DNA of 64,000 bases from Glaciimonas sp. (GTDB lineage Bacteria > Pseudomonadota > Gammaproteobacteria > Burkholderiales > Burkholderiaceae_D). How positions within the stretch are numbered: the stretch's first letter is position 1; each line of letters begins with the position of its first letter. The stretch spans positions 186,001-250,000 of the forward strand of contig JABBOV010000024.1 in NCBI GenBank assembly GCA_012927625.1, in the 5' to 3' direction. The position numbers and the translations under genes were made by a program. Shown here piece by piece: positions 5,792 through 37,479 of this stretch. The notes under the pieces were generated by a model. That model saw nothing but the letters and a program-made list of their open reading frames with translations, did not search any database and was not told the DNA's origin.

Positions 5792-5808
5792 GTGCGGCTG
5801 TTGTGAAT

Positions 5809-5884
5809 GCGGGAGTAGCTCAGTTGGTAGAGCGTAACCTTGCCAAGGTTAAGGTCGAGAGTTCGAGACTCTTCTCCCGCTCCA
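5809..5884 (+). tRNA. tRNA-Gly(GCC), copy 1
   Basis: A 76-nt cloverleaf with acceptor stem GCGGGAG/CTCCCGC, discriminator T and encoded CCA. The D stem is GCTC/GAGC. The anticodon stem is TAACC/GGTTA with loop TTGCCAA (anticodon GCC). The T arm has the TTCGAGA loop. This is the first of three identical copies spaced exactly 114 bp apart. Confidence 0.97.
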
Positions 5885-5922
5885 GTTTTAGAAGTAGCAG
5901 TGGAAGTCAGGTAATAAAAAAT

Positions 5923-5998
5923 GCGGGAGTAGCTCAGTTGGTAGAGCGTAACCTTGCCAAGGTTAAGGTCGAGAGTTCGAGACTCTTCTCCCGCTCCA
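5923..5998 (+). tRNA. tRNA-Gly(GCC), copy 2
   Basis: Base-for-base identical to the first copy, with anticodon GCC and encoded CCA. It is preceded by a 38-bp spacer that is itself repeated before the third copy. Confidence 0.97.
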
Positions 5999-6036
5999 GT
6001 TTTAGAAGTAGCAGTGGAAGTCAGGTAATAAAAAAT

Positions 6037-6112
6037 GCGGGAGTAGCTCAGTTGGTAGAGCGTAACCTTGCCAAGGTTAAGGTCGAGAGTTCGAGACTCT
6101 TCTCCCGCTCCA
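6037..6112 (+). tRNA. tRNA-Gly(GCC), copy 3
   Basis: Third identical copy, with anticodon GCC and encoded CCA. It is followed within 10 bp by a strong intrinsic terminator, so the three tRNAs form one transcription unit. Confidence 0.97.
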
Positions 6113-6120
6113 GTTTATAA

Positions 6121-18836: not shown

Positions 18837-19637
18837 TCATGTTTTGTTCCAATTCATATCCTGCACCACTGCCACGGCCACACCGTCCAAAGTTGTTTTC
18901 GGCACCAGCAAACTGCCGCGCCCACTGGCAATCAGCGCGCAGGGCTCGCATACCCCATCAACCCCCACATTTTGCTGCACCCATGCCGAAGGCTGCGTCA
19001 CCCACGGCCGCGCTGCCACGGTTGCGCGTGCGATCACGCGCAAGGGCAAGTCATAGCGCTCGCAGAAATCAAGTAATCCCGGCTCCCGCGCTTTCAGGTC
19101 AATCGTCGCTATCTCGCGGATTTGACTGATGCGGCGCTGCCCCAGTGTCAGTGCTTGGGTCAGTGCCTGGGTCAGTGCCTTACATACCGCCGCTTCGATC
19201 CGCTCGGCAGATACGCCTTTGCGGCAACCGATCCCGACCACCAGCGGCTTCAATGCCTCCGTCGCGGTTGTCACCACCGGCACCGCGCCGACCGCATTGG
19301 CCACTCGATATGCCAAGCGGTTGGCACCGCCTTCGTGGCCGGCCAAGAGCGACACCGCGTAGCGCCCGGCTTCATCCAGTACTACCAGTGCCGGATCGCT
19401 GTGTTTGTCAGTCGCCAGCCCATCGAGAAAACGTACTGCGATGCCGCTGGCCGCCAGCATTAGCCACTGCCCTTGCTGTCGATAAGCTGCGGCAAATTGC
19501 TGTTTCTGCGTCACATCAGGCTTCAGCCAAGGGCGATAAATTTCACCGCCTAGCCGTGCTTGCAGGGCAAGCGCAAGCGCTTCGCCTTCGGCGCGCACCG
19601 GCCAGATGCCGAGCATCGTTTCTGATGCAACATTCAC
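18837..19637 (-). CDS. cbiG: Cobalt-precorrin-5A hydrolase CbiG (short form)
   Basis: CbiG opens the delta-lactone of cobalt-precorrin-5A and releases acetaldehyde in the early-cobalt pathway. The N-terminal domain has LAASGIAVRFLDGLATDKHSDPALVVLDE-type sequence and the LLAGHEGGANRLA motif. The C-terminal CobE-like domain has VVGIGCRKGVSAE and the ATIDLKAREPGLLDFCERY segment. At 266 residues it is shorter than many CbiG proteins of 320-350 residues and seems to lack most of the middle region. Three 12-bp tandem repeats encode ALTQ units at about residues 153-164. Confidence 0.92.
   Translation of the reverse strand: MNVASETMLGIWPVRAEGEALALALQARLGGEIYRPWLKPDVTQKQQFAAAYRQQGQWLMLAASGIAVRFLDGLATDKHSDPALVVLDEAGRYAVSLLAGHEGGANRLAYRVANAVGAVPVVTTATEALKPLVVGIGCRKGVSAERIEAAVCKALTQALTQALTLGQRRISQIREIATIDLKAREPGLLDFCERYDLPLRVIARATVAARPWVTQPSAWVQQNVGVDGVCEPCALIASGRGSLLVPKTTLDGVAVAVVQDMNWNKT
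19147..19182. repeat. 12-bp tandem repeat inside cbiG
   Basis: Three consecutive units of GTCAGTGCNTGG type (19147-19158, 19159-19170 and 19171-19182, the last degenerate at its 3' end). They are read on the minus strand as repeated ALTQ residues just after the CobE-like domain motif GCRKGVSAE. The repeat is in frame, so changes in copy number would not disrupt the protein. Confidence 0.85.
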
Positions 19638-20452: not shown

Positions 20453-21210
20453 GAATGTCTCTTTTCTCTTGGTGTCTTGCGTATCAGTAGCGTGGCGAGA
20501 TAACCCATCGCCTCGGTTGCACATAGGTTGCCGACATCGGCAGACAGCATTTCGCCCGGCAAGCCGATGCGGCGCGCAAACGCACAATGCTCGGCAATCC
20601 CCATTTCGCGCAGCAAATCCAGCACCCAGACCAGCCGAGCGCCGACCTTCATCAGTACGATGATGTCGTGGCTCTCGATGTCGCTGCGCAACGCAGCAGC
20701 ATCATCGGGGCAGGGCAGGATCAGCGTGCGCTCTTTGCCTTCACCGAGCGGCCAACCGAGCGCCGACGCGGCTGCCGCGTAGCTGGTAATGCCGGGAAAG
20801 GTGCGATGCGGCATATTCGGTATATTCGGCAGCCGATCGCGCAATGCCGCCAGCACATAGCCGTAAGTGGAATAGGTGAGTGAATCGCCGATTGTCAGGT
20901 AAGCCACATTGCGCCCTGCGCACAGCTCGACGGCAATCGTCTCGGCCACGCCGGTGTAATGTTCGCTTAACACCGAGCGATCCGGGTCCATGTTGAACTC
21001 GACATCCCGTATCCGTTCCGGTGCGATGTCTATACCGGCCAGACATTGCAGCGCGACCGAGTCCTGCGTACCACGCGCTCGCGGCGCGAACACGATATCG
21101 GCCTGCAGCAAGGCTTCGACCGCCGCCAGGGGGATATAGCCGGCGGGACCGGGGCCGACACCTATGCCCCAGAACATGCCGGGTTTTTGGGGCGCGCTGG
21201 TTGCACTCAT
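20449..21210 (-). CDS. cobI: (Cobalt-)precorrin-2 C20-methyltransferase
   Basis: CobI/CbiL methylates C20 of precorrin-2 or cobalt-precorrin-2 and is the first committed methyltransferase after sirohydrochlorin. Conserved parts are GIGVGPGPAGYIPLAAVEAL, VAYLTIGDSLTYSTYGYVL and FPGITSYAAAASALGWPL. The ATG at 21210 overlaps the cbiD stop and gives 253 residues; the longer open frame upstream is in cbiD territory. Whether it prefers the metal-free or cobalt substrate cannot be read from sequence alone, but the neighbouring cbiX and cbiD favour the cobalt form. Confidence 0.94.
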   Translation of the reverse strand: MSATSAPQKPGMFWGIGVGPGPAGYIPLAAVEALLQADIVFAPRARGTQDSVALQCLAGIDIAPERIRDVEFNMDPDRSVLSEHYTGVAETIAVELCAGRNVAYLTIGDSLTYSTYGYVLAALRDRLPNIPNMPHRTFPGITSYAAAASALGWPLGEGKERTLILPCPDDAAALRSDIESHDIIVLMKVGARLVWVLDLLREMGIAEHCAFARRIGLPGEMLSADVGNLCATEAMGYLATLLIRKTPREKRHS

Positions 21211-22361
21211 GCGTCCTCTCCAAGCGCATTGCCGTGCAGATCGAACAGGCGTACTTCGATCCGCTTGGCTGCCGGCACGCGCTGGTGTGCCAGCACGCCG
21301 ATGCGGCGTTCGATTTCGATCCACAAGGCGTGCGCGCCGGGTTCACTTTTCATTCGTTCCATCGCTGCTTCCACTGTGTTTGCATTCGTTATTTCCTGTA
21401 CCAGATGCGGCGCGAATCCGCGCTCCGCCGCCACTCGTGCCACACATCCCATCGCCATTCCGCTCTTGCTGGAATGCGTGTCCCACACACCGTCCAGCAC
21501 CTTGGCCAGCTTGCCCGGGTGCCCTAGAAGCCATAGCACATCGAGCCGGCGCTGCCCCTCGATCAGCGCTGTTTGCGTGAAGTCGAGCGCGTCACCGAGG
21601 AAATTCGCAATCTGCACCGTGCGTTTTTCCGGCAACAGCAGCACGTCCCTCGCATAGTCACGGCCGATCTTGCCCGGCAGGTAAGCGATGGTTTGCGCAT
21701 CGCCACCCAACGCGACCCGTATGTAAACCTCAATCGAGGCGATCCAGGACGCCATCGACATCGGCTCGACAATGCCCGAAGTGCCGAGTATCGAGATGCC
21801 GCCGAGGATGCCGAGGCGCGGGTTAAAGGTTTTCCTCGCAATCACTTCGCCATTTTCGCAACCGATGTGCAGATCGAAGCCTGCATCCTGTTCTTTTCCG
21901 CCGTCAGCTTGTTCCGCCAGCACTTCGGTCACCGCCTGCCGCATCATCTGGCGTGGTACCGGATTGATCGCCGGCTCTCCCACTGCCACCCGTAAACCGG
22001 GCTGGGTAGCGGTGCCGACACCTTTACCGGCGAAGAACCGTATCTGTCCCGCAGCATTGCGGCGCACTTCGGCGAAGATAGTCGCGCCGTGGGTATTGTC
22101 TGGATCATCGCCGCCATCTTTCAATACTTCTGCACGCACTGTGGTTGTATTCAGCCACTGCAGATTCTGGATCGGCACCATCAGATAATGAGCGCGGTCC
22201 GGCAGCGTCACGCGTACCTGTTTGCGCTCATCTCCATCCAACAGCAGGTACAGCGCGGCCCTGACCGCGGCTGTCGCGCAACTGCCGGTTGTCCGTCCCC
22301 GGCGCAGGCCATTCAGCGCCAGTACACTCAGATCGAATTCCTCTTGTTCAGCCAGGCTCAT
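21207..22361 (-). CDS. cbiD: Cobalt-precorrin-5B C1-methyltransferase CbiD
   Basis: CbiD methylates C1 of cobalt-precorrin-5B and is a hallmark of the early-cobalt (anaerobic) route. The N-terminal [22 protein letters not shown] is the family signature. It is followed by [27 protein letters not shown] and [16 protein letters not shown]. At 384 residues it has normal length. It overlaps the upstream cbiX-cobH stop by 14 bases and the downstream cobI start by four. Confidence 0.96.
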
Positions 22362-23934
22362 ACGCTGCGAGCTGATTTAATGCGTCGATCATCATTGCGT
22401 TGACCACGGTTGCGGCCCAGGGCGAACCGCCGCGTGTGCCGCTGTTGGTAATGCGCGGCACTTGCATGCAGCGCCGCAAACTGTCCTTGCTTTCACGCGT
22501 GCCGACAAAGCCGACCGGCAGCCCGATCACCAATTGCGGACGCCAACCGTGTTCGCGTATCAGGCGTGTCGCTTCTGTGATGGCGGTGGGCGCATCGCCT
22601 ATTGCCAGAATGATGTCGTTGCCGAATTTTTCCCAAGCGCGCCGGATTCCGGCTGCAGAGCGGGTGATGCCTTGCGCCTGCGCCATCAGCACGGTTTCCC
22701 GATCATGCACGCCGCACCAGGTTTCGATACCGAGTTGCTCCAGCAATGCACGCTTGAGGCCGGTCTGCACCATGGTCACGTCAGTCACCACACGCTTGCA
22801 ACGCAATAGCGCGCGGATCCCGGTCTCAATAGCGCCCGGCGAAAAATAGATGTCATCGACCGCATTAAAGTCGCCGCTGGTATGCACCAGCCGCTGCAGC
22901 GCTGTCAGATGCGCGGTAGGAAAAACCGACCAGTCGCGCCCCGCCGCGATAATGCGAAAGCTTTCGGCTTCGATCGGGTGCGGTTCGTAACGCGTAAATT
23001 CGGGTTGCGTTGGTGCTGCGGTCAGCGCGCTTGCATTCTCTTTTTCCAGCAAGCCGCGTACCTGCAAATGATGCGCTTGCTGCGGCTCTCCGACTTGTTG
23101 CTCGAAGCCGACAATTTGCACCCGATATTTGCATAGCGTGCAATTCATCGCGGCACGACCTTCAACCGCCTCCCGCGCACGATCGATCAGCACATCGGCC
23201 ACGAATGGATGTACTCCAAGATAACCTGCCTTGATTACTTCCAGCGCCGGCTCGCGCTGCTGCACCGCATCAGCGGCGGCGTAAATGCGCTTGACCAGTA
23301 CACCGTCGAACAGGAAAAACGGCAGCACAACCAGCCGCTTGAATCCCAATCGGGCGGCAGCGCGCAGGCCGTCATCGACCATCGGCTTGGCAGTGCCGGA
23401 AAAACAAACCTGGACGCCGCCGAAACCCATGCCTTCTTCGAGCATGCGGGCGAGCTTGGCGATTTCCCCGTTGGCATCTGGATCAGTAGTGCCGCGACCG
23501 ACCAGCACCAGACAGGACTGATCGCGCCGCACTGTCAGCGCAGAAAGTGCTTCGGCTGTAACGATACGTTCCTGGGCCAATTGCAATAGTTGTGGATGCA
23601 GATTCAGCGGCGCGCCGAAATGGAAGTCGATTTCGGGATATGCCCGGGCCAGTGCCAGCACCTCGCTCGGCATGTCATTCTTGGCGTGGCGCGCACCCAG
23701 CAGCACACCCGGCACCACGGCAATGTGCCGCACGCCTGCAGCCAGGTTGGCTTTAACCGCCTGGGCTATGGTCGGGCTGGCAAATTCCAGATAACCGTGA
23801 CTGACCACATGCTGCGGCGCACGTGCGCGGACCAGTTCAACCAGCGCCTCGAACTCGCGCACGCCATCCGGATCGCGGCTGCCATGACCGGCAACGACGA
23901 TGCCGAATTGAGCAGGATTTTGCATCTGCGTCAT
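22348..23934 (-). CDS. cbiX-cobH: CbiX cobaltochelatase / precorrin-8X methylmutase fusion
   Basis: A 528-residue fusion. The N-terminal part is a long CbiX with two chelatase half-domains: [12 protein letters not shown] (about residues 13-24), [16 protein letters not shown], then [15 protein letters not shown] in the second half. It ends in MNCTLCKYR at about 263-271, the CxxC region that binds an Fe-S cluster in long CbiX proteins. After a linker, residues from about 318 are CobH/Cbi[29 protein letters not shown] and [13 protein letters not shown], the methylmutase that moves the C11 methyl to C12. The ATG at 23934 overlaps the cbiE stop. Confidence 0.94.
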
Positions 23935-24635
23935 GTCAACTCCGCTGCTTCGATCTGGCTGGACATCGGATTGCGCGTGCGGATCAGCATGATGCTCATG
24001 TCGGAGACATCGCGCTGCGCGCATTCGGCCAGGGTGCCGCGCCATTCGGCTTCGTCGCGTGTCAGGTTTTCCCATACTTCAGTCGGATGTTCTGGCGAAA
24101 TGCCGTTTTCGAGCAGGTAAGCGGCTATATGGCGGGGCATGAACGAGCGCGCTGCGTCCCACGGGCAGGGGATCACGATGGCATTGCGATTATCTTCGAG
24201 TACATGCACCAGATGACGTTTGAACGGAGTCAAATCGCCGCGTCGATGAAAGGTGATGAAGGTGGTTTCATCAAAGCAGACCTTGCCGCGCGAGGCCAGA
24301 ATTTGCGCCGAGGAAATTCCGGGCAGGGTTTCCACCGGATGACCGCAGGCGCGCTCGACCCGCTCCAGATATTGGAAGCCGCTGAAGTGGATGTCACCCA
24401 TGAAGACCACCACGCAACGCTTGCCGGCATGGTGTGCTGCGGCCACTTTTTCCAGTTGCGCGACCTGATCGCGATAATTCATCAGCACCACTTCGGCGCT
24501 GGCGGGAATGATGCTTTGCACGACGTTGACCACCGCGTCGAATCCGGCCACTACGTCAGCATCACGGATTAACTCTGCGCCGCGTTGGGTCAAATAGCCG
24601 ATGTCGCCCGGGCCTGCTCCAATACAAATAATCAT
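23931..24635 (-). CDS. cbiE: (Cobalt-)precorrin-7 C5-methyltransferase CbiE
   Basis: CbiE methylates C5 of precorrin-6B/7 and corresponds to the N-terminal half of CobL. The N-terminus [35 protein letters not shown] and [20 protein letters not shown] are typical of this SAM methyltransferase family. It is 234 residues long and ends before any CbiT-like C15-methyltransferase/decarboxylase domain; no separate cbiT is found in the window. It has a good Shine-Dalgarno (TGAGGAACAGAC) before the ATG at 24635. A 172-bp gap with a palindrome separates it from chlID upstream. Confidence 0.93.
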
Positions 24636-24670: not shown

Positions 24671-24826
24671 TTCCCATATTCATGTTGCTCATGTTTTCTT
24701 CATGCAGAAAGGTAGGTCGGAAAAGCGCAGCGCCTTCCGACAATCAGACGCAACGTCGGAAGGCGCTGCGCTTTTCCGACCTACAGTTTTTCCCATGCTC
24801 ATGTTGCTCATGTTGCATTTATGCAG
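24671..24826. repeat. 37-bp direct repeats bracketing a palindrome
   Basis: The stretches 24671-24707 and 24790-24826 are imperfect direct copies sharing TTCCCAT, CATGTTGCTCATGTT and ATGCAG in order. They bracket the 73-bp palindromic element. The right copy includes the last codons and the stop of chlID; the left copy lies just ahead of cbiE. Duplications this long are not ordinary transposition target duplications. Confidence 0.8.
24712..24784. repeat. REP-like palindrome (30-bp arms)
   Basis: Perfect inverted repeats at 24712-24741 and 24755-24784 with a 13-nt loop. The arm starts GTAGGTCGGAAAAGCGCAGC. This resembles the GTCGGAAGGCGC-type repetitive extragenic palindromes found in many proteobacterial genomes. 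Located between chlID and cbiE, the long RNA hairpin could reduce read-through or stabilise the upstream message. Confidence 0.93.
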
Positions 24827-26754
24827 CCACGGATCGTCAGCGCCAGATTTTCCGCCGACAACTCTTCTAAAGTCAGACATTCGGCCCCTAAAGCCTGCGC
24901 TAGTTGCGCGGCCCGCCCCAGGCGCAGATAACCGGTTTCGGTATCGAGTACCAGCGCCGGAATACCGCGTCCGGCCAGCATCTCCGCCAGCGCCAGCGTT
25001 TCATGCCAGGGGTCGCCGCCATCGCGCAATGCCACGTTGGCCTTGCCGTCACTGAGCAATACCAGCAACGGAGGCGCGCCGTTGGCAGCGGCCTGTTCCA
25101 GGGTTTCCAGCGCCAGTTGCAGCGCGTGTGGCAACGGCGTGCGGCCGCCGGTGGGTAATTCGCGCAAGCCTTGTTCGGCACGATCGACGCTGCGGGTAGG
25201 CGCCAGCAGCAGCGCCGCTGCGTCGCCGCGAAAGGAAATGACTGCCACTTCGTCACGCCGTTGGTAAGCATCGGTCAGCAGCGCCAGTACCGCGCCCTTG
25301 ACCGCTTCCATGCGACGCTGCGCAGCCATCGAGCCGGACGCATCCACCACAAACAGGATCAGGTTGGCGCTCTTGCCGATGCGGATTTGCTGGTGCAGAT
25401 CGCTCCTGTTTACCTTGAATTCGAGCGGCTGGTCGGTTGCTGCTGTCCGCAGCGCCGCGCTTCGCAATGTGGCCCCGACCGCAAGGCTGGTTGGGTTCTG
25501 ATCCGGTACTGCACGCACCACACGACCACGCGGCGCATCCGCCACCGCGCTGCGCCGGCCGGCAATCGGATGCATAGCGACCGCGTCCACTGCAATCCGC
25601 CGCACAGTGCCGCTGGCTGCTGCGGCGAATACCTGCTGCCCGGTTTCTTGTTCCGATTCTTGTTCAGATTCTTGCTGTGACTTTGGCTGTGGCCCGTCTT
25701 CCTCGGATGAAGCCTCGGACTCTTGTTCGGACTCCGGCGGCGGGCTGGCTTGCTGCATCAATTCGTCGAGCCGATCCTGATCTAGTCCCGGCTGCTCGAA
25801 AGGCTTGCGCCGACGGCGGTGCGGCAGCACCAGTTGCGCTGCACTGCGCACATCGTCGGGCGTTACCTGCAAGCGCCCGTCGAGTGCGGCCAGCGCGCGC
25901 GATGCCTTGTGCATCACGATATCGGCACGCAGGCTGGCGACATCGAATTCGCAGCACAGATGGCTGATCAGATCGAGCAGTGCATCATCCAGTATCACTT
26001 TCGACAACAACTGTTGCGCGGTGGCGAGCTGCGCCCGCAATGCATTTTGCTGCGGAGCCCAGGCGCTGACGTAAGCGGCCGGATCGGCTTCAAACGCAAT
26101 GCGACGGCGCACCACTTCGGCGCGCAAGGTTTTCTCGCGTGGCGCCGCCACTTCGACCATCAAGCCGAAACGGTCCAGTAGTTGCGGGCGCAGATCGCCT
26201 TCTTCCAGATTCATGGTGCCGATCAGGGTGAAACGCGCCGGGTGCGTGACCGACAGACCTTCGCGCTGCACCGAATTGACGCCCATCGCCGCCACGTCCA
26301 GCAGTACATCGACCAGATGATCTGCCAGCAAGTTGACTTCATCGATATACAGAATGCCGCGGTGCGCTGCCGCCAGCAAGCCGGGTTGAAAGGTTCGTTT
26401 GGCGCCCTGCAACGCGCGCTCCAGATCGAGTGTGCCGAGTACCCGGTCTTCCGTCGCACCGAGCGGCAGCGTAATGAAAGGCACCGCACAAGGCTGCACC
26501 GTTGCATTCGCGTTACTACAAATCTCGCAGTGACCGCAGGGTGTGCCGGGCAGACAGTTGAATGCGCAGCCTAGAATACGTTCTATCGGCGGCAGGATAT
26601 CGGTCAGCGCCCTTGCCGCCGTGCTTTTGGCGGTGCCTTTATCGCCCCGGATCAGCACCCCGCCCAAAGTGGTATCGACTGCGCACAGCAGCAGTGCCGT
26701 CTTTAACTGCTGCTGTCCGACGATGGCGGAAAATGGAAAATGCATGTTTGTCAT
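24808..26754 (-). CDS. Putative cobaltochelatase ChlI/ChlD-type AAA+ and VWA subunit
   Basis: A 648-residue protein related to magnesium chelatase subunits I and D, predicted to supply the ATP-driven motor for CobN. The N-terminal AAA+ domain has VLIRGDKGTAKSTAARAL as P-loop and GILYIDEVNLLADHLVDVLLD as Walker B. A Cys-rich insert (CAFNCLPGTPCGHCEIC) lies between them. A Ser/Glu/Gln-rich linker (about residues 335-375) leads to a C-terminal von Willebrand A domain with MIDAS motif VVDASGSMA and LSDGKANV. It directly follows cobN. Similar ChlID proteins pair with CobN in bacteria that lack CobS and CobT chelatase subunits. Confidence 0.88.
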   Translation of the reverse strand: MTNMHFPFSAIVGQQQLKTALLLCAVDTTLGGVLIRGDKGTAKSTAARALTDILPPIERILGCAFNCLPGTPCGHCEICSNANATVQPCAVPFITLPLGATEDRVLGTLDLERALQGAKRTFQPGLLAAAHRGILYIDEVNLLADHLVDVLLDVAAMGVNSVQREGLSVTHPARFTLIGTMNLEEGDLRPQLLDRFGLMVEVAAPREKTLRAEVVRRRIAFEADPAAYVSAWAPQQNALRAQLATAQQLLSKVILDDALLDLISHLCCEFDVASLRADIVMHKASRALAALDGRLQVTPDDVRSAAQLVLPHRRRRKPFEQPGLDQDRLDELMQQASPPPESEQESEASSEEDGPQPKSQQESEQESEQETGQQVFAAAASGTVRRIAVDAVAMHPIAGRRSAVADAPRGRVVRAVPDQNPTSLAVGATLRSAALRTAATDQPLEFKVNRSDLHQQIRIGKSANLILFVVDASGSMAAQRRMEAVKGAVLALLTDAYQRRDEVAVISFRGDAAALLLAPTRSVDRAEQGLRELPTGGRTPLPHALQLALETLEQAAANGAPPLLVLLSDGKANVALRDGGDPWHETLALAEMLAGRGIPALVLDTETGYLRLGRAAQLAQALGAECLTLEELSAENLALTIRGCINAT

Positions 26755-26759
26755 TTTTT

Positions 26760-29700
26760 CTAAGTTTGTATGCCGCGTGGAGTTTCACCGCGTGCTTCCA
26801 GCAAGGTTTCGCTTTGCAGATACAGTTCGCGCAGTGCTTCCAGCGTCTGCGGTTTCGGCTCAGCCCACATGCCGCGATGAGCGGCTTCCAGCAGGCGCTC
26901 GGCGATGGCGTTCTGCGCCCACGGATTGGCTTCCTGCAGGAAGCGCCGGATTTTGGGATCGAACGCATAACTGCTCGCCACCTGCTCGTACATCCAGTCA
27001 TCCATCACCTGGGCAGTGGCGTCGTAACCGAACAGATAGTCGACTGTGGCAGTCAGTTCCAACCCGCCCTTGTAGCCATGTCGCTGAATGCTCGCCAGCC
27101 ACTTCGGATTGACCACGCGAGAGCGGAACACCCGCAAGGTTTCTTCCTTCAGATCACGGACCTGAGCCCGCGCCGGGTCATGACTGTCGCCGAAATAACG
27201 GCGCGGCTGCTGGCCGGTCAGGACGCGGATGGTGGCGATCATGCCGCCGTGAAATTGCAGGTAATCGTCGCTATCGAAAATGTCATGCTCGCGATTATCC
27301 TGATTGTGCAGCGCTACCTGAACGCCGGACAACCGGACCCGGAACGCGTCGCGCTGGTCTGTCCCTTGCGTGCCACGTGCATACGCATAGCCGCCCCAGT
27401 TGACATAGGCTTCGGCAAAATCGGCATCGGTTTGCCAGTTTTTTTCCTGAATCAGCGGCAAGATACCGGCGCCGTAGCTGTCGGGTTTTGCCCCGAAGAC
27501 ACGATAGCCGGCGCGTTGTGATGCCTCTTCTTGCGGCAAGCCCTTGCCGATCCACTGGCCCAATTCAGCCAGATAATGCTTGCGCACGAAATTCTGCGAC
27601 GGCGGTTCGTCGAGCTTGATCACGGTATTGACCGCATCATCGATCAGGTCGATCAACTGTGGGAATGCGTCGCGGAAAAAGCCGCTGATACGAGTTGTTA
27701 CGTCGATGCGTGGACGTTTCAGCTCCGCCAGCGGCACCACTTCGACGCCGATCAGTTGACGGTTCTCCGGCCGCCACAGCGGGCGTACGCCGAGCAGCGC
27801 CAGTATCTGCGCCACGTCGTCGCCGTGGGTGCGCATCGCGCTGGTGCCCCAGATGCTGATGGCGACGCTTTCTGGATAATCTCCGGTTTCGCGCAGATGG
27901 CGCGTCAGTACTTCGTGCGCCAGTTGCTGCCCGACGCGCCACGCCGATTGCGACGGCACGCTGCGCGGATCGACCGAGTAAAAATTGCGTCCGGTCGGCA
28001 GGATGTGCGCCATGCCGCGAGTCGGCGAGCCACTTGGTCCTGCAGGAACATAAGCGCCGGACAAACCGCCCAACAAATTGTCGATCTCGTCCGAAGCACG
28101 GGCCAGATTCGGCACCAGTTCGCGGCAGGCAAAACCCAGCACCCGACGCAAGGCGTCGTAGCAATCGCTGTCATCGGTCACTGCATCCTTGTGCGCGATG
28201 CGCTCCGGCATGCTGCGCGCTGCTGGCACCCGGTGTTTGCTCACTTGCGACAAAACACTACTGCGCGAACGCAGTGCCGGTTGCAGCAGCGGCCGACGCA
28301 CTGCGGCACTATCGGCATCCAGCCCGGCAAATATTTTGTTCAGGACTTCGTCAATGCGCGATGCAAGAAAATCGTGCGCCTGCAATTCGATGAACAATTT
28401 GCGGCACAGCACGTCGATTGCTTCCAGTGCATCGGCACGGGTCACGACAGGCCGTTCGGCCAGGTGGCCCAGAGCGCTGACGACATTCAATCGACGCCCC
28501 TTGGAATCCAACAGCATCTCGATTTGCAAGCCGAACAGCCGCGCCACTTCCGCCTGCAAGCCGGGAATATCCTGATTCGGCAGGCGCGTCAGCGACACCA
28601 GCATCTCCACCAGTTGCTCGTTTTGTGGCGACTGTCCGAGGATATGCAGGCCATCACGGATTTGTGCCATCCCTAGCTCGCACAGGTAGCCGTCGAGGTC
28701 TTCAATCAGATGGGCGACATCGGCGCCCTCCATATTTGTCAGCGCAGCCGGAAGCGCTTCGTCATGCTGATGGGGATGTTCGTGGCCATGTTCGTGATCG
28801 TGTTCGTGTTCGTGTTCGTGTTCGTGGTCATGATCATGGCCATGATGCAGCAGTCGGGCCTGCAAATCCGCATCCAGATTGGTTTGCTTGACCAATTCCC
28901 ATATCTGTTGCTGCAACAACGGCAGCTTGGCCGGATCGAGAACCTCGACCTGATAATACTCATCCACCAGTTGCGTCAACTGAGCCAGCGCGCCATAGGT
29001 ATCGGCGGTAGTCATCGGCGGTGTCAGGTGATCGACGACGACCGCGTGGGCGCGGCGCTTGGCTTGTGCGCCTTCGCCCGGATCGTTGATGATGAAAGGA
29101 TAAAACAGCGGAATATCCGCCAGCAGCGCATCAGGAAAACAATTCTCCGACAGGCCAACGCCCTTGCCGGGCAACCATTCGAGCGTGCCATGCTTGCCGA
29201 CATGGACAATGGCGTCGGCGCGCCATTCGTCGCGCAACCAGCGATATAGCGCGTAGTAATGATGGGTCGGCGGCAAATCCGGCTGATGATAGATCGCGTC
29301 CGGGTCCATGCCGTAGCCGCGCGGCGGTTGCAGTGCCACGAAGGCATTACCCAGTTCTATCCCCGCCAGCGCCAGATGATCGTCATGCAGATAGGCAACA
29401 CCCGGCGCTGCGCCCCATTGCGTGGTCATTTTTTCCTGCAACGCAAACGGCAAATCGGCAAACCATGCCGCGTATTGCGCTGACGACACGCGGCCAACTG
29501 CGTGCGTCAACTGCTCGCTGGTGAGATAGGTATTGTCGTAGGCGCAGCGATCAATCAGCGCGTGGATCAGCGCGGTGCCGCTCTCAGGCAATTGGTCAAT
29601 CCGGTAACCGGTGTCTTGCATTGCGCGCAGGATGTGCATCAGCGAGGCAGGCGAGTCGAGCCCAACCGCGTTACCGATTTGCGATGCCTTGCTATTCGAA

Positions 29701-30881
29701 TTGGTGAAGATGAAAGCCACGCGTTTGTCCGCATTGGGCAAGCGCTTCAACTGTGCGAAGCGCGCTGCCAGCCCGGCCACACGCGCCACGCGATCTGGTA
29801 CAGGTTCGTATTCGATCAGTTCCTTCGCATGGCCGGCAGCCTTGGCCTTGAACGACACCGGCACACTGATAATGCGGCCGTCGAACTCCGGCAACACCAC
29901 GTTCATCGCCGCATCGAGCGGATTGAGACCACGGGCTGATTGCTGCCACTGATCTTGCGTCATGCCACTGGCAATGGCTTGCAACACTGGCACATTCAAC
30001 TGTTCCAACGCGCTGACCGACCAGCCGGCTGGAGTTGGCCGGCCCGCCGTGATCTCGCCCATAGCAAACGAAGTGGTGTTGATCAGGACGTCGATATGTG
30101 GGCCCGGTTTGCCATCGAATTTATCATCGCTTATGCCACTGAAATAACGCAAAGCAATCGGCAGCTGTGCGCCACCATCGCTGCCGGCACGCAACGATGC
30201 AGTAAACACCGGCAACACATTCATGCCGCGTTTTTCCAGTGCATCGATCAACGCATCGACAAAACGCGTATTGCCACTGATCCAGTGGGCACGGTAGAAA
30301 ATGATTCCGACGTTCGGCCGTTGCGATCCATGCACTAATTCGCGCTGCGCCAGCCAGTCATCGATACCGGCACCCTGGGCTAGGTCTGGGTGGTAGATTC
30401 CATGCTCGGGCAAGGCAACCGCAGGCTCGTAAGCGAAGCCGCTCAGTAGGAAATGATCGGATACATAGCGCAGGAACTGGGCCAGGTTCACGCTGCCGCC
30501 GGCATGGAAATACGCTAACGCCTGCCGCAATACATCCGATGAAACAGTCGATACAGCCGCCAGCTCCAGGTCGGGTTCACCGGTGCCGCTGATGGCGATC
30601 AAATGCAGACCGCGATTCTGGACTTGTCGCAGCAGTTCGGTAAAACCCGGCACACTGCCAAGACGCCCGAGTACCCGCAAAATAATGATTTGTGCGTCGG
30701 CGAGTTCATGCGTCAGCAGCGCCGCCATCTGCGTTTCGCTTTCCAATGCCTGCAGGTTTACCCCGGCGACAGCAGAAAATTCTTGCGGCAGTTGTGCCAG
30801 CGCACTCTGCAGCACGGTCAGATCGTTCGGTGCATGCGTCAGCAATGCAATTTGGGCGTTCGCCACCATTGCTTCAGACAT
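26760..30881 (-). CDS. cobN: Cobaltochelatase subunit CobN with His-rich insert
   Basis: CobN is the large catalytic subunit of the ATP-dependent chelatase that puts cobalt into hydrogenobyrinic acid a,c-diamide, and it is related to magnesium chelatase BchH. At 1373 residues it has normal length. Conserved stretches include [31 protein letters not shown]-type sequence near residue 540-570, [15 protein letters not shown] and [17 protein letters not shown]. Residues 679-706 form a 28-residue stretch with 15 histidines, mostly HE/HD repeats encoded by a TGTTCG tandem repeat. It overlaps the upstream 2Fe-2S gene by eight bases and precedes chlID by five. Confidence 0.95.
28800..28827. repeat. 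6-bp tandem repeat in cobN encoding His-Glu units
   Basis: Four consecutive TGTTCG-type hexamers on the plus strand are read as CAC GAA (His-Glu) on the minus strand. They form the core of the CobN His-rich insert. Being a multiple of three, slippage here would lengthen or shorten the insert in frame. Confidence 0.8.
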
Positions 30882-31212
30882 GCTGGTTTTCCAATGGACA
30901 GGTATCGCCTTCAGCCAGCCGGTGAAAAATCAGATCGCTAACTTCACGCCCACCTTCCAGATGTTCGACAACGATACGTTCCAGCGCTGCCTCGTCGGCG
31001 CATTGATACCAAACGCCTTCCGGATACACGACGAGTATCGGGCCCTGATTTTGGCAGGCAACCATGCAATGGGTTCGGGTACGCTTGATGCGCAACTCCG
31101 GGCGGGCATCAATTTTCTTCCCCATCAATTCGAACATGGCTTGCGCCTGCACGCCGTCCTCGGTGCAACGCGGCCCGATGCACATGAATGCGTGTCTGGT
31201 GTGAGTTCTCAT
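30874..31212 (-). CDS. Thioredoxin-like [2Fe-2S] ferredoxin
   Basis: A small protein of the COG3411-like 2Fe-2S family. Four cysteines in the pattern FMCIGPRC and [10 protein letters not shown] match the thioredoxin-fold ferredoxin cluster site; [18 protein letters not shown] is also typical. The ATG at 31212 ([14 protein letters not shown]) is chosen because the longer frame adds a non-conserved 29-residue leader; this gives 112 residues. Such ferredoxins recur in cobalamin gene clusters (CbiW-like) with unproven function, perhaps redox control or cobalt handling. It overlaps cobN by eight bases. Confidence 0.85.
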
Positions 31213-31283
31213 CAAATTTTCTACAAAGTTGTCCGGGTTTGCACCACGGAAGCTGTTAGCTGACCGGTGTTGCTGAAGCAGTT

Positions 31284-31362
31284 TTTTGTAGGAGCGCACC
31301 TGGGCGCGATCAACGGCTGCAGTCTGGCGACTGCTTTCGCGCCCGGGTGCGCTCCTACAAAA
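31284..31362. repeat. REP-like palindrome (26-bp arms)
   Basis: Inverted arms at 31284-31309 and 31337-31362 with one mismatch and a 27-nt loop. The outer part reads TTTTGTAGGAGCGCACC. TGTAGGAGCG-type palindromes are a common repetitive family in Gammaproteobacteria and Betaproteobacteria. Between cbtA and the 2Fe-2S gene, it could act as a transcriptional attenuator or RNA stabiliser. Confidence 0.88.
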
Positions 31363-31537: not shown

Positions 31538-32293
31538 TCAGGAATTACTTCTTGCGTGCTGTATAGTCGCCAGCTTCTTGTAAAACAAGCCCATCAAGCC
31601 ACCCAGCGCCAGCCAAAACACGGCATTCGCAATCGTCGTGGCATGGATGAAAGCCTGCGCCAGTTCGGCGGGTGCTGCGCTTGCGTGAGTTTCCGGTTGT
31701 GGCGCACCAATCAGATGCGGGACAATTAGCAACAGTGCGCCGAACAGTTTGAGTTTCCAGTTGTGCGTAAAAATCAGCAACGATAATCCGCCCGCCGTCA
31801 TTACCGCCGTAGCGAGCCACCAGAGTTGCCGATTCGCCAGCGGTGCTGCTGCGGTGCCGGGTACCTCAGGCGGCAAGCCCAAAGAAGGTGCAATGAAAAA
31901 AACCGCATAGCCAGCCAGGCCCCACAACAAGCCGGAACGCCAGCCGCCGGCACCACCGCGCAAACATAATCCGCCGCCCAGCAACAGCCCGAAACCAACG
32001 GCCAGACTGATATTGGCTAGCGCCGTAAACATCGTTCGCTCTAAACCATCAGCCGGTTGCCACGCATCCGGCGCATGTTCGTGTTCGTGCGCTTGCTCAG
32101 GAGTATGGGTATGCGCATTTTCGACATGTGAAAGCGCAACAGCAGCATCGGATACTGCAGCCGCAGCTTCCTCATAGACTTCGGCTTTCGAAATGATCGG
32201 GCTGACCTGAATTTTCTGAACCACTGTCAATGTCAGACCCGCCAGCAGACCCGCCAATACAGCAGCGGTAACGATGCGCTTGAATGCCGCCAT
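31538..32293 (-). CDS. cbtA: Predicted cobalt transporter CbtA
   Basis: CbtA is a predicted cobalt permease with several membrane helices, found with CbtB under cobalamin riboswitch control. The N-terminal helix (VTAAVLAGLLAGLTLTVVQ) is followed by a periplasmic loop rich in His (AHTHTPEQAHEHEHAPDAW) and by helices including ISLAVGFGLLLGGG and WGLAGYAVFFIAPSLGLPPE-type sequence, a hallmark of the family. The ATG at 32293 is chosen because AGGGA lies 8 nt upstream; an ATG at 32329 would overlap the cbtB stop (TGATG) but has no Shine-Dalgarno. Confidence 0.9.
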   Translation of the reverse strand: MAAFKRIVTAAVLAGLLAGLTLTVVQKIQVSPIISKAEVYEEAAAAVSDAAVALSHVENAHTHTPEQAHEHEHAPDAWQPADGLERTMFTALANISLAVGFGLLLGGGLCLRGGAGGWRSGLLWGLAGYAVFFIAPSLGLPPEVPGTAAAPLANRQLWWLATAVMTAGGLSLLIFTHNWKLKLFGALLLIVPHLIGAPQPETHASAAPAELAQAFIHATTIANAVFWLALGGLMGLFYKKLATIQHARSNS

Positions 32294-32328
32294 GTTAATG
32301 ATCCCTGACATTGGTATTGGCATATCCA

Positions 32329-32532
32329 TCAGTGGCAGGGAAAGCCGGCGGAATGACGGCCGTCATGCGCAGCATTATGCAAGGCTGAAGTGTCGGCGAA
32401 AGCCGCGCCATACAGCAGCACCAGTCCAAGGCTGGCGGCCAGTAAAACGGGCATTACTTTGTCTTTCCAGGCAGTTGAGCGGGAGTGGGATTGTGAATCG
32501 ACGTTATCGAGCAAACCAGGTATTGAGGACAT
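32329..32532 (-). CDS. cbtB: Cobalt transporter subunit CbtB
   Basis: CbtB is a one-helix protein of about 60-70 residues that accompanies CbtA. The hydrophobic segment VMPVLLAASLGLVLLYGAAF is followed by the conserved His-rich C-terminus HNAAHDGRHSAGFPCH, which is diagnostic and probably binds cobalt. The ATG at 32532 gives 67 residues; the longer frame upstream runs through riboswitch sequence. A cobalamin riboswitch lies about 190 bases upstream, so vitamin B12 should repress this cobalt uptake system. Confidence 0.93.
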   Translation of the reverse strand: MSSIPGLLDNVDSQSHSRSTAWKDKVMPVLLAASLGLVLLYGAAFADTSALHNAAHDGRHSAGFPCH

Positions 32533-32661
32533 GTGATACCCCTTCTTAAGGAAAACACCCAAGCCATGACAATAATCAGCGCAGAGATAGAAGACATCTC
32601 CATAGCCAATCAGCGCCATAAGCGCATGAATGAGCTTGTATGTTAAGAAGGAAGTGATAGA

Positions 32662-32700
32662 CGGAGGGCGCAACAGGCCAGCCATCTGCATCGCCCTCCG
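32662..32700 (-). promoter_or_regulatory. Possible expression-platform hairpin of the cbtB riboswitch
   Basis: Perfect 9-bp inverted repeats, CGGAGGGCG at 32662-32670 and CGCCCTCCG at 32692-32700, lie just downstream (minus strand) of the riboswitch. There is no strong U-run after it, so it may be an anti-terminator/sequestor arm or a rho-related stop rather than a classical terminator. Confidence 0.5.
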
Positions 32701-32720
32701 CGATACAAACTCTACGATAG

Positions 32721-32927
32721 CTTCAGGCTGGTCTCCGGGCTTACGAGTGGAATTCCCTTGTTGGGTTTTCCTAGATTTGCGCCTTCCCATGCATTGCACA
32801 GTGGCTTACTGCAAATCTTTTTACTCGATTACCGTTGCGGGGGCAGCGTCGGATTTGCTCTCTAATTCAGAAAACTTACCGACTTCCCATTTCATTCTAC
32901 AAACGACTGTTTGCAAAATACCTGAAG
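32721..32927 (-). promoter_or_regulatory. Cobalamin riboswitch upstream of cbtB
   Basis: Read on the minus strand, the outer stem CTTCAGG/CCTGAAG pairs 32921-32927 with 32721-32727. The core GCTGCCCCCGCAACGG lies at 32832-32847, AAGCCACTGTGC at 32796-32807, GGGAAGGCG just after it, and the B12 box AAGCCCGGAGACCAGCC at 32726-32742. Order and spacing match the AdoCbl riboswitch. It should control cbtB-cbtA and possibly the whole downstream cobalamin operon. Confidence 0.95.
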
Positions 32928-33057
32928 CAAAGAAAATTATTATATGCGCCGAAGTTGATACATACAAGTCATTAAAACGCGCTGTTCCGTCAGAACGGCA
33001 TCGCTCATGTGGCTTGCAAATTATGTATTTGCAACGGCGGTAAAGACATCAAAAAGA

Positions 33058-35019
33058 TCAGAAATCGTAGCGCGCAGAAAGCTTCAACTGGCGGCCGTTG
33101 TCAGTGTAAATTCCACTTTGGCAATTGCCATAAGCATTCGTGAAATAATGTTTATCTGTCAGGTTGCTACCTGCGATTGCGAATTCCCATGCACCAACAC
33201 GCTTGGCATAACGTCCGTCCAGCGTAGCAAACGACGGCATCCGTGCTGAACACGTATTGGAGAAGTCGCCGCCATAGCGTTGCGAGTCAACCCATTGCAC
33301 ACCGACATCGGCGCTTTGACTATTGTCCGGCATCCAATTGATACGCACGGTAGCGATATTTTTCGGCACTAGCGTAATTTCGTTGCCAGCATTTTGCCCT
33401 TCAATAAATTGGGCGGAAAGATGCTGCAGGTTGGCCGACAAGGTGAAAGTTGATGCAAGACGCATGCTCGTTTCAATTTCAATCCCTTGCCGCTTGGTCG
33501 GGTCAAGATTGACGTTGGCGCCAAAAAATCCTGCTGTAGGATCGAAGAAAATTTCGTTTTTCAAGCGATGCTGGAACAACTTCACCGTCACTTTTTTCTC
33601 GATATTGCCTAGCGTCGCACCCAGCTCAAGGTCATGCGAAATCTGAGGTTTCAGCGGTTGGTTGGCAACCGGCGTAAAGCCATTTTCATCGACATTGGCG
33701 ACCCGATAGCTTTGGCCCGCTTTTGCAAACACATTGACACCCGGCCCGACAAGATAATTACCTTGTAAATCCCAGGCATTCAATGCCTGCGAAATATCGT
33801 AAAGGCCGACGCCATTATTCGCGCTATCTTTATCGAATATTTCATGACGTGCACCAAACGCCAGGCGTGCATTGCCGACTTTTACCTCGTCGCGCGCATA
33901 CAGTGCTTTGGACTGTTGCGACGCATCTACATTTGTATTTGTACTACGTGTCCAGTGCGAGAAATCCATCCCAAACACTAACTCGTTGGTCAAATCGCCA
34001 GATATGAACAAATGCCGAACACGCGGGGAAAATTGCGTCATTCCGCCATCGTATTGCAAAATGGACGAGCCAAACGAACCGACGTACTGCGCCTTGGCCG
34101 TCCTGTCACGATGCGACAGTTCCGCCGCTAGTTCGAATGCGCCAAGACGGCGTTCCATAAATGCCGTGTAGCGGTTAGTATCAATCGAAGCCATATCATT
34201 CGGGCTCAAGGTTTGACGCGGATTTCCCTCAAATTGCGCCAAAGAAAGCGCGCCTGCCAAACGGGAATCCTGACGCGCGATATCCACCCGCAAGCCGGCT
34301 CGTCCCTCGTTTGATGCCCACTGAGCGCCGCCGCTGAAATTATTCTGCCGCACCGCATTGTTATCGCGATAATTATCGGATTCCAGCTTACTCACGTTGG
34401 CATCCAGAGAAAATCCCCCCCATCCTTTCGCGGCAGACGCACGTACTTCCTTGTGACCGAACTGGCCAATTTCAGTTGTGATGCTGCCGTGCAACGCGTT
34501 ACCTTGCGGGCGCTTGGTGATGATTTGAATCACCCCTGCAGTCGCACCATCGCCATACAAGACGCTGCTGCCGCCGCGCACGATTTCGATGCGTTCGACG
34601 GTTTCGATCGGCACTGAAGAAAATAGAGCACCGGATATTTCGTTTTCAGACAGGCGAATGCCATCCAGCAGTACTACCACGTTGTTGATGCTGGTCGCAC
34701 CGAATCCACGCAGATCAAGCCCAAAATCTTGCGTGCCATCACCACTTTGACGGCCGAATACACCGCCGATTTTACGGATTGCCTGATTCACATTCCCGAC
34801 ACCGGCTTCGCGAATTTGTTCGGCAGTGATGACTGTCGCACCGATCGGGTTGAATGCAGGATCGTTCGCAAAGCGTGACGCCGTCACCATAACCGGCGCT
34901 AGCGTTTTATCGTTATTGGTTTGGGCAGATGCAGGGGCGATGAAGCAGGCAGATAAGGCAGACGCCAGCGCAAGCGGCTTCCAGACCGGCGCGCGGCTGG
35001 GGAGGGTGGAGAAAATCAT
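33058..35019 (-). CDS. btuB: TonB-dependent vitamin B12 receptor BtuB
   Basis: Outer-membrane receptor for corrinoid uptake. The 653-residue protein has a signal peptide ending near ASAQ, a TonB-box-like APVMVTASRF, and a plug domain with GVGNVNQAIRKIGGVF, LDLRGFGATSINNVVVLLDG and ERIEIVRGGSSVLYGDGAT. A beta-barrel follows and closes with the terminal aromatic LKLSARYDF. Corrinoid specificity is supported by the cobalamin riboswitch directly upstream and the adjacent cobalamin locus; sequence alone cannot exclude another metal chelate. Confidence 0.93.
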   Translation of the reverse strand: MIFSTLPSRAPVWKPLALASALSACFIAPASAQTNNDKTLAPVMVTASRFANDPAFNPIGATVITAEQIREAGVGNVNQAIRKIGGVFGRQSGDGTQDFGLDLRGFGATSINNVVVLLDGIRLSENEISGALFSSVPIETVERIEIVRGGSSVLYGDGATAGVIQIITKRPQGNALHGSITTEIGQFGHKEVRASAAKGWGGFSLDANVSKLESDNYRDNNAVRQNNFSGGAQWASNEGRAGLRVDIARQDSRLAGALSLAQFEGNPRQTLSPNDMASIDTNRYTAFMERRLGAFELAAELSHRDRTAKAQYVGSFGSSILQYDGGMTQFSPRVRHLFISGDLTNELVFGMDFSHWTRSTNTNVDASQQSKALYARDEVKVGNARLAFGARHEIFDKDSANNGVGLYDISQALNAWDLQGNYLVGPGVNVFAKAGQSYRVANVDENGFTPVANQPLKPQISHDLELGATLGNIEKKVTVKLFQHRLKNEIFFDPTAGFFGANVNLDPTKRQGIEIETSMRLASTFTLSANLQHLSAQFIEGQNAGNEITLVPKNIATVRINWMPDNSQSADVGVQWVDSQRYGGDFSNTCSARMPSFATLDGRYAKRVGAWEFAIAGSNLTDKHYFTNAYGNCQSGIYTDNGRQLKLSARYDF

Positions 35020-35103
35020 GATGTCGTTTCAAATAAGAATGCTCCAGTCTGCGTCCCCGCAAGCCGGAATCAACGAAGGTGCAAATTCGCGCACTTTCAC
35101 CTA

Positions 35104-35311
35104 TTTTGGCCGGTATCCGGGCTGACAAGTCAGGCTGCCTCACCTTCCCGTGCAAATAGCACAGTGGTACTGAGAGACAGTTTGTCACTGAAATTTCCTA
35201 GTGACGCTTGTTTTACCGTTGCGGGGGCAGCACACGTTGGCCGATGAGGGTGTCATCTGCGCCGTGTTTCCCGTTTAACTGCAGGCATGGAGATGTCTGC
35301 GGGCACCAAAA
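35104..35311 (-). promoter_or_regulatory. Cobalamin riboswitch upstream of btuB
   Basis: On the minus strand the outer stem TTTTGG/CCAAAA pairs 35306-35311 with 35104-35109. The core GCTGCCCCCGCAACGGT is at 35215-35231, CCACTGTGC at 35159-35167, GGGAAGGTGAGGCA next, and the B12-box AGCCCGGATACCGGC at 35109-35123. The btuB start is about 85 bases downstream. It should shut down receptor synthesis when cobalamin is plentiful. Confidence 0.95.
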
Positions 35312-35568
35312 CGTGCGTATTGTATGCCGCAAGCCGGACTTACGACAATTGAACTATGAAATTTTTTTTGTGGGTATTTCGTCAATCCGTGCGGATTGGC
35401 GCGGTGGATATGGCATTTTATTGTTGCGCGGTTAAGCATGTTGAATGTAAAAAATAAAGCGGACATCGTTTTTCCCACGCAGGTTTGTTAGCCTTTTCGC
35501 GACGATATAGTGGGTAATCTGTAATGTCCCAACTTTGGGAATACTTGCTTGTCTTTCAAAATATAGAT

Positions 35569-35692: not shown

Positions 35693-35839
35693 ATGCCTTT
35701 TCGCACGCAATTTTCTCGTAGCTTTGTTTTTGCAGTCCTGGCCTGGCCGGCTTGGTTGCGTGTGCTGGCGATTTTGCCGGTCATTCTAGTCTTGTGGCTA
35801 GGCGTGCTTTGGGCGCTGGCTGGGGAGTTGCCGTGGTGA
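35693..35839 (+). CDS. Small single-helix membrane protein upstream of the metal ABC genes
   Basis: A 48-residue frame beginning MPFRTQFSRSF. It has a basic N-terminus and one long hydrophobic segment (about residues 17-44, WPAWLRVLAILPVILVLWLG region). Its TGA overlaps the GTG start of the ATPase gene (GTGA), an arrangement that usually marks coupled translation and is the main reason to believe it. There is no clear Shine-Dalgarno and no recognised family. It may be an accessory subunit or simply a coupling leader; a longer frame from 35579 exists but is unconvincing. Confidence 0.5.
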   Translation: MPFRTQFSRSFVFAVLAWPAWLRVLAILPVILVLWLGVLWALAGELPW

Positions 35840-36570
35840 CGCTGGATGATCTTACGGTGGCCTTTCGGCGGCATCCGGCGCTGCATCACATCAGTGGACA
35901 ATTTGCCAAAGGTTCTCTGACGGCCGTGACCGGCCCCAACGGAGCGGGAAAAAGTACTTTGCTCAAGAGCATTCTTGCCTTGTTGCCGGTCAATAGCGGC
36001 AGCATCAAGGTTGCTCCAAATCTGCGATGCATCGCATATTTGCCGCAGCAGTCGGAAATTGAACGTAATTTTCCAATCTTGGTGCGCGATTGCATATTGC
36101 TTGGTTACTGGCAAAAGGTGGGGCAATTCGGCAGCATTTCTTCTGTTTTGATGGCGCGAGCAGAAGCTGCGCTAGATGCAGTTGGACTGGATGGATTTTC
36201 GCAGCGCGCAATTGGCTCCTTGTCGGCTGGCCAGTTCCAGCGTGTATTGTTTGCCCGCATGTTGTTACAGGATGCCGATTTGATCCTGCTCGATGAGCCT
36301 TTCAATGCGGTCGATAGCAAGACCACAGCCGAATTGTTGCGGATCATCGCTTCCTGGCATCGGGAAGGCCGCACGGTGATAGCGGTGTTGCATGACCATG
36401 CGCAGGTGCGTAGCTACTTTCCGCAAACGCTGCTGTTGGCACGCAATGTAATTGCGTGGGGCGATACGGCAACGGTCATGACCGATGATTATTTGCGTCA
36501 AGCTAAAGTGATGGCTGAGGCGTGGGACGAGAATTCACTCTTATGCGAAGTTGGAGCCAGGGCGGCATGA
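35836..36570 (+). CDS. Zinc/manganese ABC transporter ATP-binding protein
   Basis: ATPase of a cluster-9 metal importer (ZnuC/MntB-like). Walker A is TGPNGAGKSTLLKSI, the signature LSAGQFQRVLFAR, Walker B LILLDEPFNAVD and the switch His sits in VLHDHAQVR. The GTG at 35836 overlaps the preceding small gene's stop and gives 244 residues, starting directly with the first beta strand TLDDLTVAF; the longer frame upstream adds unrelated residues. The stop overlaps the permease ATG. Zinc versus manganese cannot be decided from this subunit. Confidence 0.9.
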   Translation: MTLDDLTVAFRRHPALHHISGQFAKGSLTAVTGPNGAGKSTLLKSILALLPVNSGSIKVAPNLRCIAYLPQQSEIERNFPILVRDCILLGYWQKVGQFGSISSVLMARAEAALDAVGLDGFSQRAIGSLSAGQFQRVLFARMLLQDADLILLDEPFNAVDSKTTAELLRIIASWHREGRTVIAVLHDHAQVRSYFPQTLLLARNVIAWGDTATVMTDDYLRQAKVMAEAWDENSLLCEVGARAA

Positions 36571-37442
36571 TCATCGATATTTACCAATTTGCTGTCGCTC
36601 CCTTCCAGGAGTTCGCTTTCATGCGCCGGGCGCTGGTGGGCACTATCGCTCTGGCGATGAGTGCTGCGCCGCTCGGCGTCTTGCTGACCTTGCGCCGGAT
36701 GAGCTTGTTTGGCGATGCATTAAGTCATGCGGTGCTGCCCGGCGTGGCTGCGGGCTTTTTACTGTTTGGCTTGTCGCTCACGGCGATGATGGTGGGTGGT
36801 TTTCTGGCCGGCATCATCGTGGTGGTGATTGCCGGGCTGATCAGTCGCTATACCGAGTTGAAAGAGGATGCAAGCCTGGCTGCGATTTATCTAGTGGCAC
36901 TGGCATTGGGCGTGATGCTGATTTCGCGCCGGGGAACCCAACTCGACTTGCTGCATATCCTGTTTGGCAGCGTGCTGGGAGTAGACGTCGGCGGTTTGCT
37001 GCTGGTAGCCGGCGTTTCTACCTTCAGCTTGCTGGCGTTGGCGATACTGTATCGCGGTTTGTTGCTGGAGAGTTTCGATCCATCCTATCTGGCGGCCAGC
37101 GGCAGCCGCGGCATTGTGCTACAGCAGACATTCCTGATGCTGGTGGTATTAAACCTGGTGGCAGGTTTCCAAACCTTGGGTACGTTAATGGCGGTCGGCT
37201 TGATGATGCTACCGGCCGTATCGGCACGGCTCTGGCACGACACTTTGCCCGCACAATTGCTAGGTAGCATGCTGCAGGCGGCCTGTGCCGGTTATTTTGG
37301 CCTATTGCTGTCATACCACATTGACACGCCATCGGGGCCGACCATTATCGTTTGCGCCGGCGTGCTGTATTCGGCCTCGCTACTGTTTGCGCCGCGCGGC
37401 TGGTTACCCAGGTTGCGGCGCTCGTCGCATTTGCAGGGCTGA
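36567..37442 (+). CDS. Zinc/manganese ABC transporter permease
   Basis: ABC-3 family integral membrane protein (ZnuB/MntC-like) with about eight helices. Conserved parts include FMRRALVGTIALAMSAAPLG, LFGDALSHAVLPGVAAGFLL and FQTLGTLMAVGLMMLPA. The ATG at 36567 overlaps the ATPase stop (ATGA) and yields 291 residues; an upstream start would overlap the ATPase gene by 48 bases. The substrate-binding protein follows 37 bp later. Confidence 0.9.
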   Translation: MIIDIYQFAVAPFQEFAFMRRALVGTIALAMSAAPLGVLLTLRRMSLFGDALSHAVLPGVAAGFLLFGLSLTAMMVGGFLAGIIVVVIAGLISRYTELKEDASLAAIYLVALALGVMLISRRGTQLDLLHILFGSVLGVDVGGLLLVAGVSTFSLLALAILYRGLLLESFDPSYLAASGSRGIVLQQTFLMLVVLNLVAGFQTLGTLMAVGLMMLPAVSARLWHDTLPAQLLGSMLQAACAGYFGLLLSYHIDTPSGPTIIVCAGVLYSASLLFAPRGWLPRLRRSSHLQG

Positions 37443-37479
37443 ATATGTCCGGTTTTCCTTACCTCCGAAAGAATACAAA

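Follow-up and report, generated by a model that had tools for sequence, protein, structure and literature searches.

A conserved His-rich loop in a clade of CobN cobaltochelatases and its pairing with CobW-like GTPases that lack the CxCC motif

The transfer of cobalt from the cytosol to CobNST is thermodynamically unfavorable without CobW, and GTP-bound CobW overcomes this barrier (PMC10206600). The Co(II) site of CobW likely uses the CxCC motif (PMC7895991), which is stated to be present in all COG0523 proteins (PMC2770081; PMC7895991). The His-stretches of HypB, UreG, and CobW can move between partner proteins (PMC2770081). They are length-variable His/Asp stretches on proteins of metallocenter assembly, as is the CobN loop described here, but they are carried by a GTPase or chaperone, whereas the CobN loop is located on the chelatase itself.

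Among the chelatases, the CobN of CobNST from Mycobacterium (7c6o; 9uk9) is of the same family as the CobN studied here and shares its fold and its conserved active-site region. In contrast to the present CobN, these proteins have no His loop, and only a short link connects the two helices that flank the site. A CobN structure entry from 2025 (9fpc) is named for its corrin and metal sites. HmuS, a de-chelatase that takes iron out of heme, belongs to the same class I chelatase superfamily and likewise carries a disordered, metal-ligand-rich, length-variable insertion throughout its family; this Met-rich insertion was reported to be absent from other class I chelatases (PMC12583661). The HmuS insertion (residues 780–898, domain IV) is rich in Met instead of His, whereas the His-rich loop of CobN is located earlier and aligns near HmuS residue 650. 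The alignment position therefore led us to reject the idea that both occupy the same site. A second segment of CobN, residues 857–904, is also predicted to be disordered. It is not enriched in metal ligands and lies closer than the His loop to where HmuS has its Met-rich insertion.

The cobN locus and its His-rich loop

The window, a 64,000-nucleotide stretch of Glaciimonas sp. DNA, contains the cobN gene (positions 26760–30881, minus strand), which is single-copy in the genome and encodes the large subunit of a class I cobaltochelatase (1373 aa). In the profile search, CobN scored 1374 bits against PF02514 and 1245 bits against TIGR02257, where the curated cut-off is 822. Alignments to 4zhj, 6ytj, and 6yt0 placed E569 (29175–29177) and E604 (29070–29072) of CobN, which together span 29070–29177 of the minus strand, on E625 and E660 of ChlH, respectively. 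CobN thus has the active-site Glu residues of class I chelatases. The ChlH residues are those changed in the structures 6ytj (E625K) and 6yt0 (E660D; also 6ytn).

Residues 679–706 of CobN form the His-rich loop, as delineated from the translation, the relatives, and the predicted disorder. The original prediction described a 28-residue insert with 15 His at this place, and these residues map exactly to 28764–28847 (minus strand). It also described His as alternating with Asp or Glu. Such spacers are present, but Gly, Pro, and Gln serve as spacers too. Part of the loop was said to be encoded by a TGTTCG tandem repeat, and Tandem Repeats Finder reported it at 28777–28826 (plus strand) as an imperfect repeat of 8.3 copies with 81% matches, the longest perfect run being 4 copies. 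The same alignment position holds a His-rich segment in 79 distinct relatives, which excludes a chance origin.

The AlphaFold2 model covers CobN residues 175–1373 (pLDDT 79.6, pTM 0.83), and its fold matches 7c6o (TM 0.77–0.79), ChlH, and HmuS. In full-length numbering, the loop has pLDDT <50 between the confident helices 650–677 and 719–737, and is thus predicted to be disordered. Both the alignment and the model place it after the domain that contains the active-site Glu residues and before the next helices.

The gene adjacent to cobN encodes a ChlI-ChlD fusion (24808–26754, minus strand; TIGR02442, 801 bits with a cut-off of 779), the AAA+ motor partner of CobN, which can be either CobST or ChlID. 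CobT was not found in this genome, and no strong CobT match was obtained in ~33 loop genomes tested. The type of motor was rejected as a discriminator of the loop, as genomes with loopless CobN of the Pseudomonas type also lack CobT. Further along the minus strand are genes for a CbiX-CbiC fusion (22348–24075; PF01903 and PF02570), i.e., a sirohydrochlorin cobaltochelatase joined to a precorrin-8X mutase, for CbiD (21207–22361; PF01888, 278 bits), and for CbiG (18837–19637; NF005440, above cut-off). CbiX, for early cobalt insertion, and CobN, for late insertion, are thus encoded in one operon with CbiD and CbiG. The CbiG_N domain was rejected as a marker of the early pathway, since most CobN genomes have it, whether their CobN carries the loop or not.

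On its other side, cobN adjoins a gene for a small 2Fe-2S ferredoxin-like protein (30874–31299, minus strand; weak NCBIfam 2Fe-2S ferredoxin matches), which is kept beside many loop cobN genes. It is followed by the gene for the proposed cobalt transporter subunit CbtA (31538–32329, minus strand; PF09490, 178 bits; TIGR02458, above cut-off). CbtA does contain the His-rich stretch noted earlier, HTHTPEQAHEHEH; this stretch was rejected as a conserved feature, being short and differing from homologue to homologue. A cobalamin riboswitch (32709–32940, minus strand; RF00174, 117.4 bits) is located upstream of the cbtB-cbtA-...-cobN genes. The listed start of cbtB (32329–32799, minus strand; PF09489, 67 bits) overlaps this riboswitch, so the true start is probably inside the open reading frame. 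In loop-cobN loci with sufficient flanking sequence, we found cbtB, cbtA, the 2Fe-2S-like gene, chlID, cbiE, cbiX-cbiC, cbiD, cbiG, cobJ/K, and cobW.

Upstream of the cbt-cob operon, a TonB-dependent receptor (33058–35019) has its own cobalamin riboswitch (35091–35325). The B12 locus is adjoined on the other strand by an ABC metal importer (35752–38379), which consists of an ATPase, a permease, and a ZnuA/AztC-like binding protein. The latter scored below the AztC cut-off, and the importer is predicted to carry zinc/manganese. Elsewhere in the window, three identical tRNA genes (5806–6116; anticodon read as GCC, Gly) are arranged in 114-base tandem units.

Distribution and evolution of the loop

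Relatives were sampled from named genomes, close kin, and less biased family, class, and phylum sets that were searched with a CobN profile. The scan of named genomes included the pattern DHEHEHEH and therefore leans towards His-rich loops, whereas the family, class, and phylum profile samples do not. The 79 distinct loops all occupy one alignment site and contain 10–52 His within 18–109 residues. In the family sample, CobN scored over the cut-off in 60 of 373 genomes, and the profile match was split at the loop in nearly all of them; the clear exception was the loopless CobN of genome G660. Most CobNs of the class and phylum samples were loopless. The loop is thus no local oddity but a trait of a whole CobN clade, universal there and absent from other CobNs. 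It is not ubiquitous, and a search of the open-access literature found no description of a His loop in CobN.

In outgroup CobNs of Bacteroidota and Chloroflexota, the loop site is occupied by a short DHGDHxHEW motif, and one CobN of Planctomycetota has NHGDHVHEW there. Alignment of CobNs from Alphaproteobacteria and Actinomycetota revealed neither the motif nor the loop at that site. When the loop columns were removed, the CobN tree had the states nested in the order none, short motif, and loop, which requires one reversal, in a Melainabacteria row. On this tree, the loop arises from the short DHGDHxHEW motif. The CobN of G122 has an intermediate sequence, in which HAWDATLNAEGVP comes after HD repeats. 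In some Methylococcaceae (L062, L063, L066, and L067) and Neisseriales (L070 and L071), a segment rich in Lys and Pro (GAIKLGSLKPVINKPLALGQSVFKPAPK or KYRLQTSKPVAVQP, for example) divides the loop into two His-rich arms.

The original prediction suggested that slippage of the repeat could vary the insert between strains. Variation in length is seen between species: of 90 pairs of close relatives with 94%–99.9% identical flanks, 88 have loops of unequal length. His nevertheless makes up about half of every loop, whatever its length. The 74 HD-type loops contain 1730 His codons, 698 of which are the minor codon within their loop. The same loops contain only 13 Tyr and Arg residues, which are the products of non-synonymous transitions in His codons. 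This corresponds to 0.02 Tyr/Arg per synonymous His change vs ~2 expected under neutrality, i.e., a roughly hundredfold deficit. Slippage does not explain this deficit, because it copies both kinds of His codons alike. The spacers of HD-type loops are Asp (52%), Gly (20%), and for the remainder Glu, Ala, and Pro, with Ser also occurring, and the His residues are mostly spaced by 1–2 residues. This pattern indicates that the His residues are under strong purifying selection and the spacers are free, so that the loop evolves fast in length and slowly in composition.

Pairing of the loop with a CxCC-less CobW-like GTPase

The locus also encodes a CobW-like G3E GTPase of 370 aa (16167–17279, minus strand; PF02492, 133.7 bits; PF07683). 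With CobW (COG0523 subgroup 12; TIGR02475), it shares the common G3E motifs, the CobW_C domain, a His segment in front of CobW_C, and a location in a B12 operon. Its P-loop GTPase motifs were identified in the alignment as GSGKTT, ETSG, and NKID. In contrast to CobW, it scored only 182.9 against TIGR02475 (cut-off 332.1), has no CxCC, and contains, in place of a low-complexity stretch, a His motif that is conserved. The alignments place GLIAY (residues 71–75; 17055–17069, minus strand) at the position of GC[IL]CC in other COG0523 proteins. The site reads L-x-A/G-Y in 76 distinct sequences and CxCC in 52 others. The original prediction had called this protein His-rich, which agrees with its 7-His segment, and had made no mention of the loss of CxCC. 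The conserved His motif, GHAHSGMNAHTHGLATHKHFHEQDPGW (residues 249–275; 16455–16535, minus strand), emerged when 30 members of the subfamily were aligned. AlphaFold2 modeled this motif at low confidence, so its model of the protein was uninformative and was discarded as evidence for a metal site.

The new observation is that loop CobN is almost always paired with a CxCC-less CobW, and loopless CobN with a CxCC CobW. In the family, the CxCC-less CobW was present in all 57 loop genomes tested and in none of 22 CobN-negative relatives. Among 80 CobN-positive genomes of the class and phylum samples, it was found only in G122 and G462, both of which have a loop CobN. When genomes with both proteins were counted, 60 had the CxCC-less CobW and the loop, 2 the CxCC-less CobW without the loop, 23 the CxCC CobW without the loop, and none the CxCC CobW together with the loop. 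L268 was added beside the 60, as its 13 His were under the run threshold used. All 18 genomes with a CxCC-less CobW that were tested, G079 and G080 among them, have a full-length CbiX-CbiC fusion, which none of the other tested CobN genomes has. The link between loop and CobW type is not independent of ancestry, as it involves one operon type and few changes on the tree. A Fisher value computed for the genome counts takes no account of common descent and was therefore set aside.

The two genomes with a CxCC-less CobW and no CobN loop are G079 and G080. G079 carries the HD stretch HHHPHDHAHDHPHDDHAHAHPHDDHTHAHPH on its CobW-like protein and none on CobN, whereas G080 has neither. In one CxCC-less CobW of this kind (L121), from a genome with loopless CobN, a His/Asp stretch of 31 residues lies within the C-terminal domain. 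A simple movement of His from CobW to CobN was rejected, since the median longest His stretch of CobW is 5 in both groups; a trade of His between the two proteins is shown by G079 only. In G660 (L297), the loopless cobN and the gene for a CxCC-type CobW lie side by side. This CobN groups with those of another family, which suggests that the cobN of G660 was replaced by transfer.

Possible function of the loop

We consider it moderately likely that the loop is a selected, disordered, length-variable His/Asp tether that binds Co(II) and feeds the chelatase as part of a variant delivery route. The original prediction took the insert for a possible cobalt or nickel buffer that feeds the chelatase, and this is partly supported: the selection on His, the predicted disorder, and the cobalt/B12 setting fit a putative metal-binding buffer or tether. 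By carrying a His loop, the chelatase would have more Co(II) in its vicinity, the loop acting as a tethered store that hands cobalt over. The GTPase of this route would be CobW-like, lacking the CxCC metal site and keeping its conserved His motif, which could exchange metal with the CobN loop; without CxCC, it cannot use the CxCC-type Co(II) site. We infer here that the loop binds metal, that this metal is cobalt, the direction of its transfer, and that the GTPase drives the transfer. Against this reading, CbiX, an early cobalt chelatase, is encoded in the same operon, which casts doubt on the substrate of this CobN and on the need for it.

His/Asp stretches are not specific for one metal and bind Ni, Zn, and Cu as well. 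The loop might therefore be a general sink or shield that guards the chelatase from Ni, Zn, Cu, or excess Co and feeds no cobalt to it. The Ni binding by the His-rich stretches of UreG and HypB (PMC2770081) and the predicted zinc/manganese importer next to the B12 locus are in line with this. However, the loop goes together with the cobalt operon and the CobW type of that operon and not with zinc genes, and CobN, as a minor protein, would make a poor bulk sink, so we regard this explanation as unlikely. We give even less credence to a functionless by-product of repeat slippage that is tolerated in a surface loop. The length variation among close pairs, the hexamer repeat in the window, and the predicted disorder would all be expected from slippage, but CAT and CAC are mixed in all 79 loops and most perfect hexamer runs have ≤3 copies. 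The hundredfold deficit of His-to-Tyr/Arg changes speaks against it as well, as do the conservation of the short ancestral DHGDHxHEW motif itself and the fact that, in the sampled clade, only G080 is without the loop (with the HD stretch of G079 on its CobW-like protein). The least probable of these explanations is a docking or polyanion/polycation contact with ChlID, CbtA, or the CobW-like GTPase, with metal secondary. It would agree with the position of the loop between the active-site-Glu domain and the following helices and with its co-occurrence with a particular CobW type. Yet free order and length, conservation of His only, and charged spacers that can be replaced by Gly, Ala, or Pro are unlike a docking motif.

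How cobalt is supplied to CobNST against an unfavorable gradient has so far been answered by a GTPase with CxCC-held Co(II). The widespread CxCC-less branch of CobW, nearly always accompanied by a chelatase loaded with His, provides a natural test of this model. On the most far-reaching reading, which we hold somewhat less likely than not, the variant delivery route works with a Co(II)-binding tether on CobN; if so, CxCC would not be essential for CobW-type function, and a His stretch could be relocated between partners. The matched pairs (loop with CxCC-less CobW, and no loop with CxCC CobW) and the exceptions G660, G079, and G080 allow direct tests of what CxCC and His stretches contribute.
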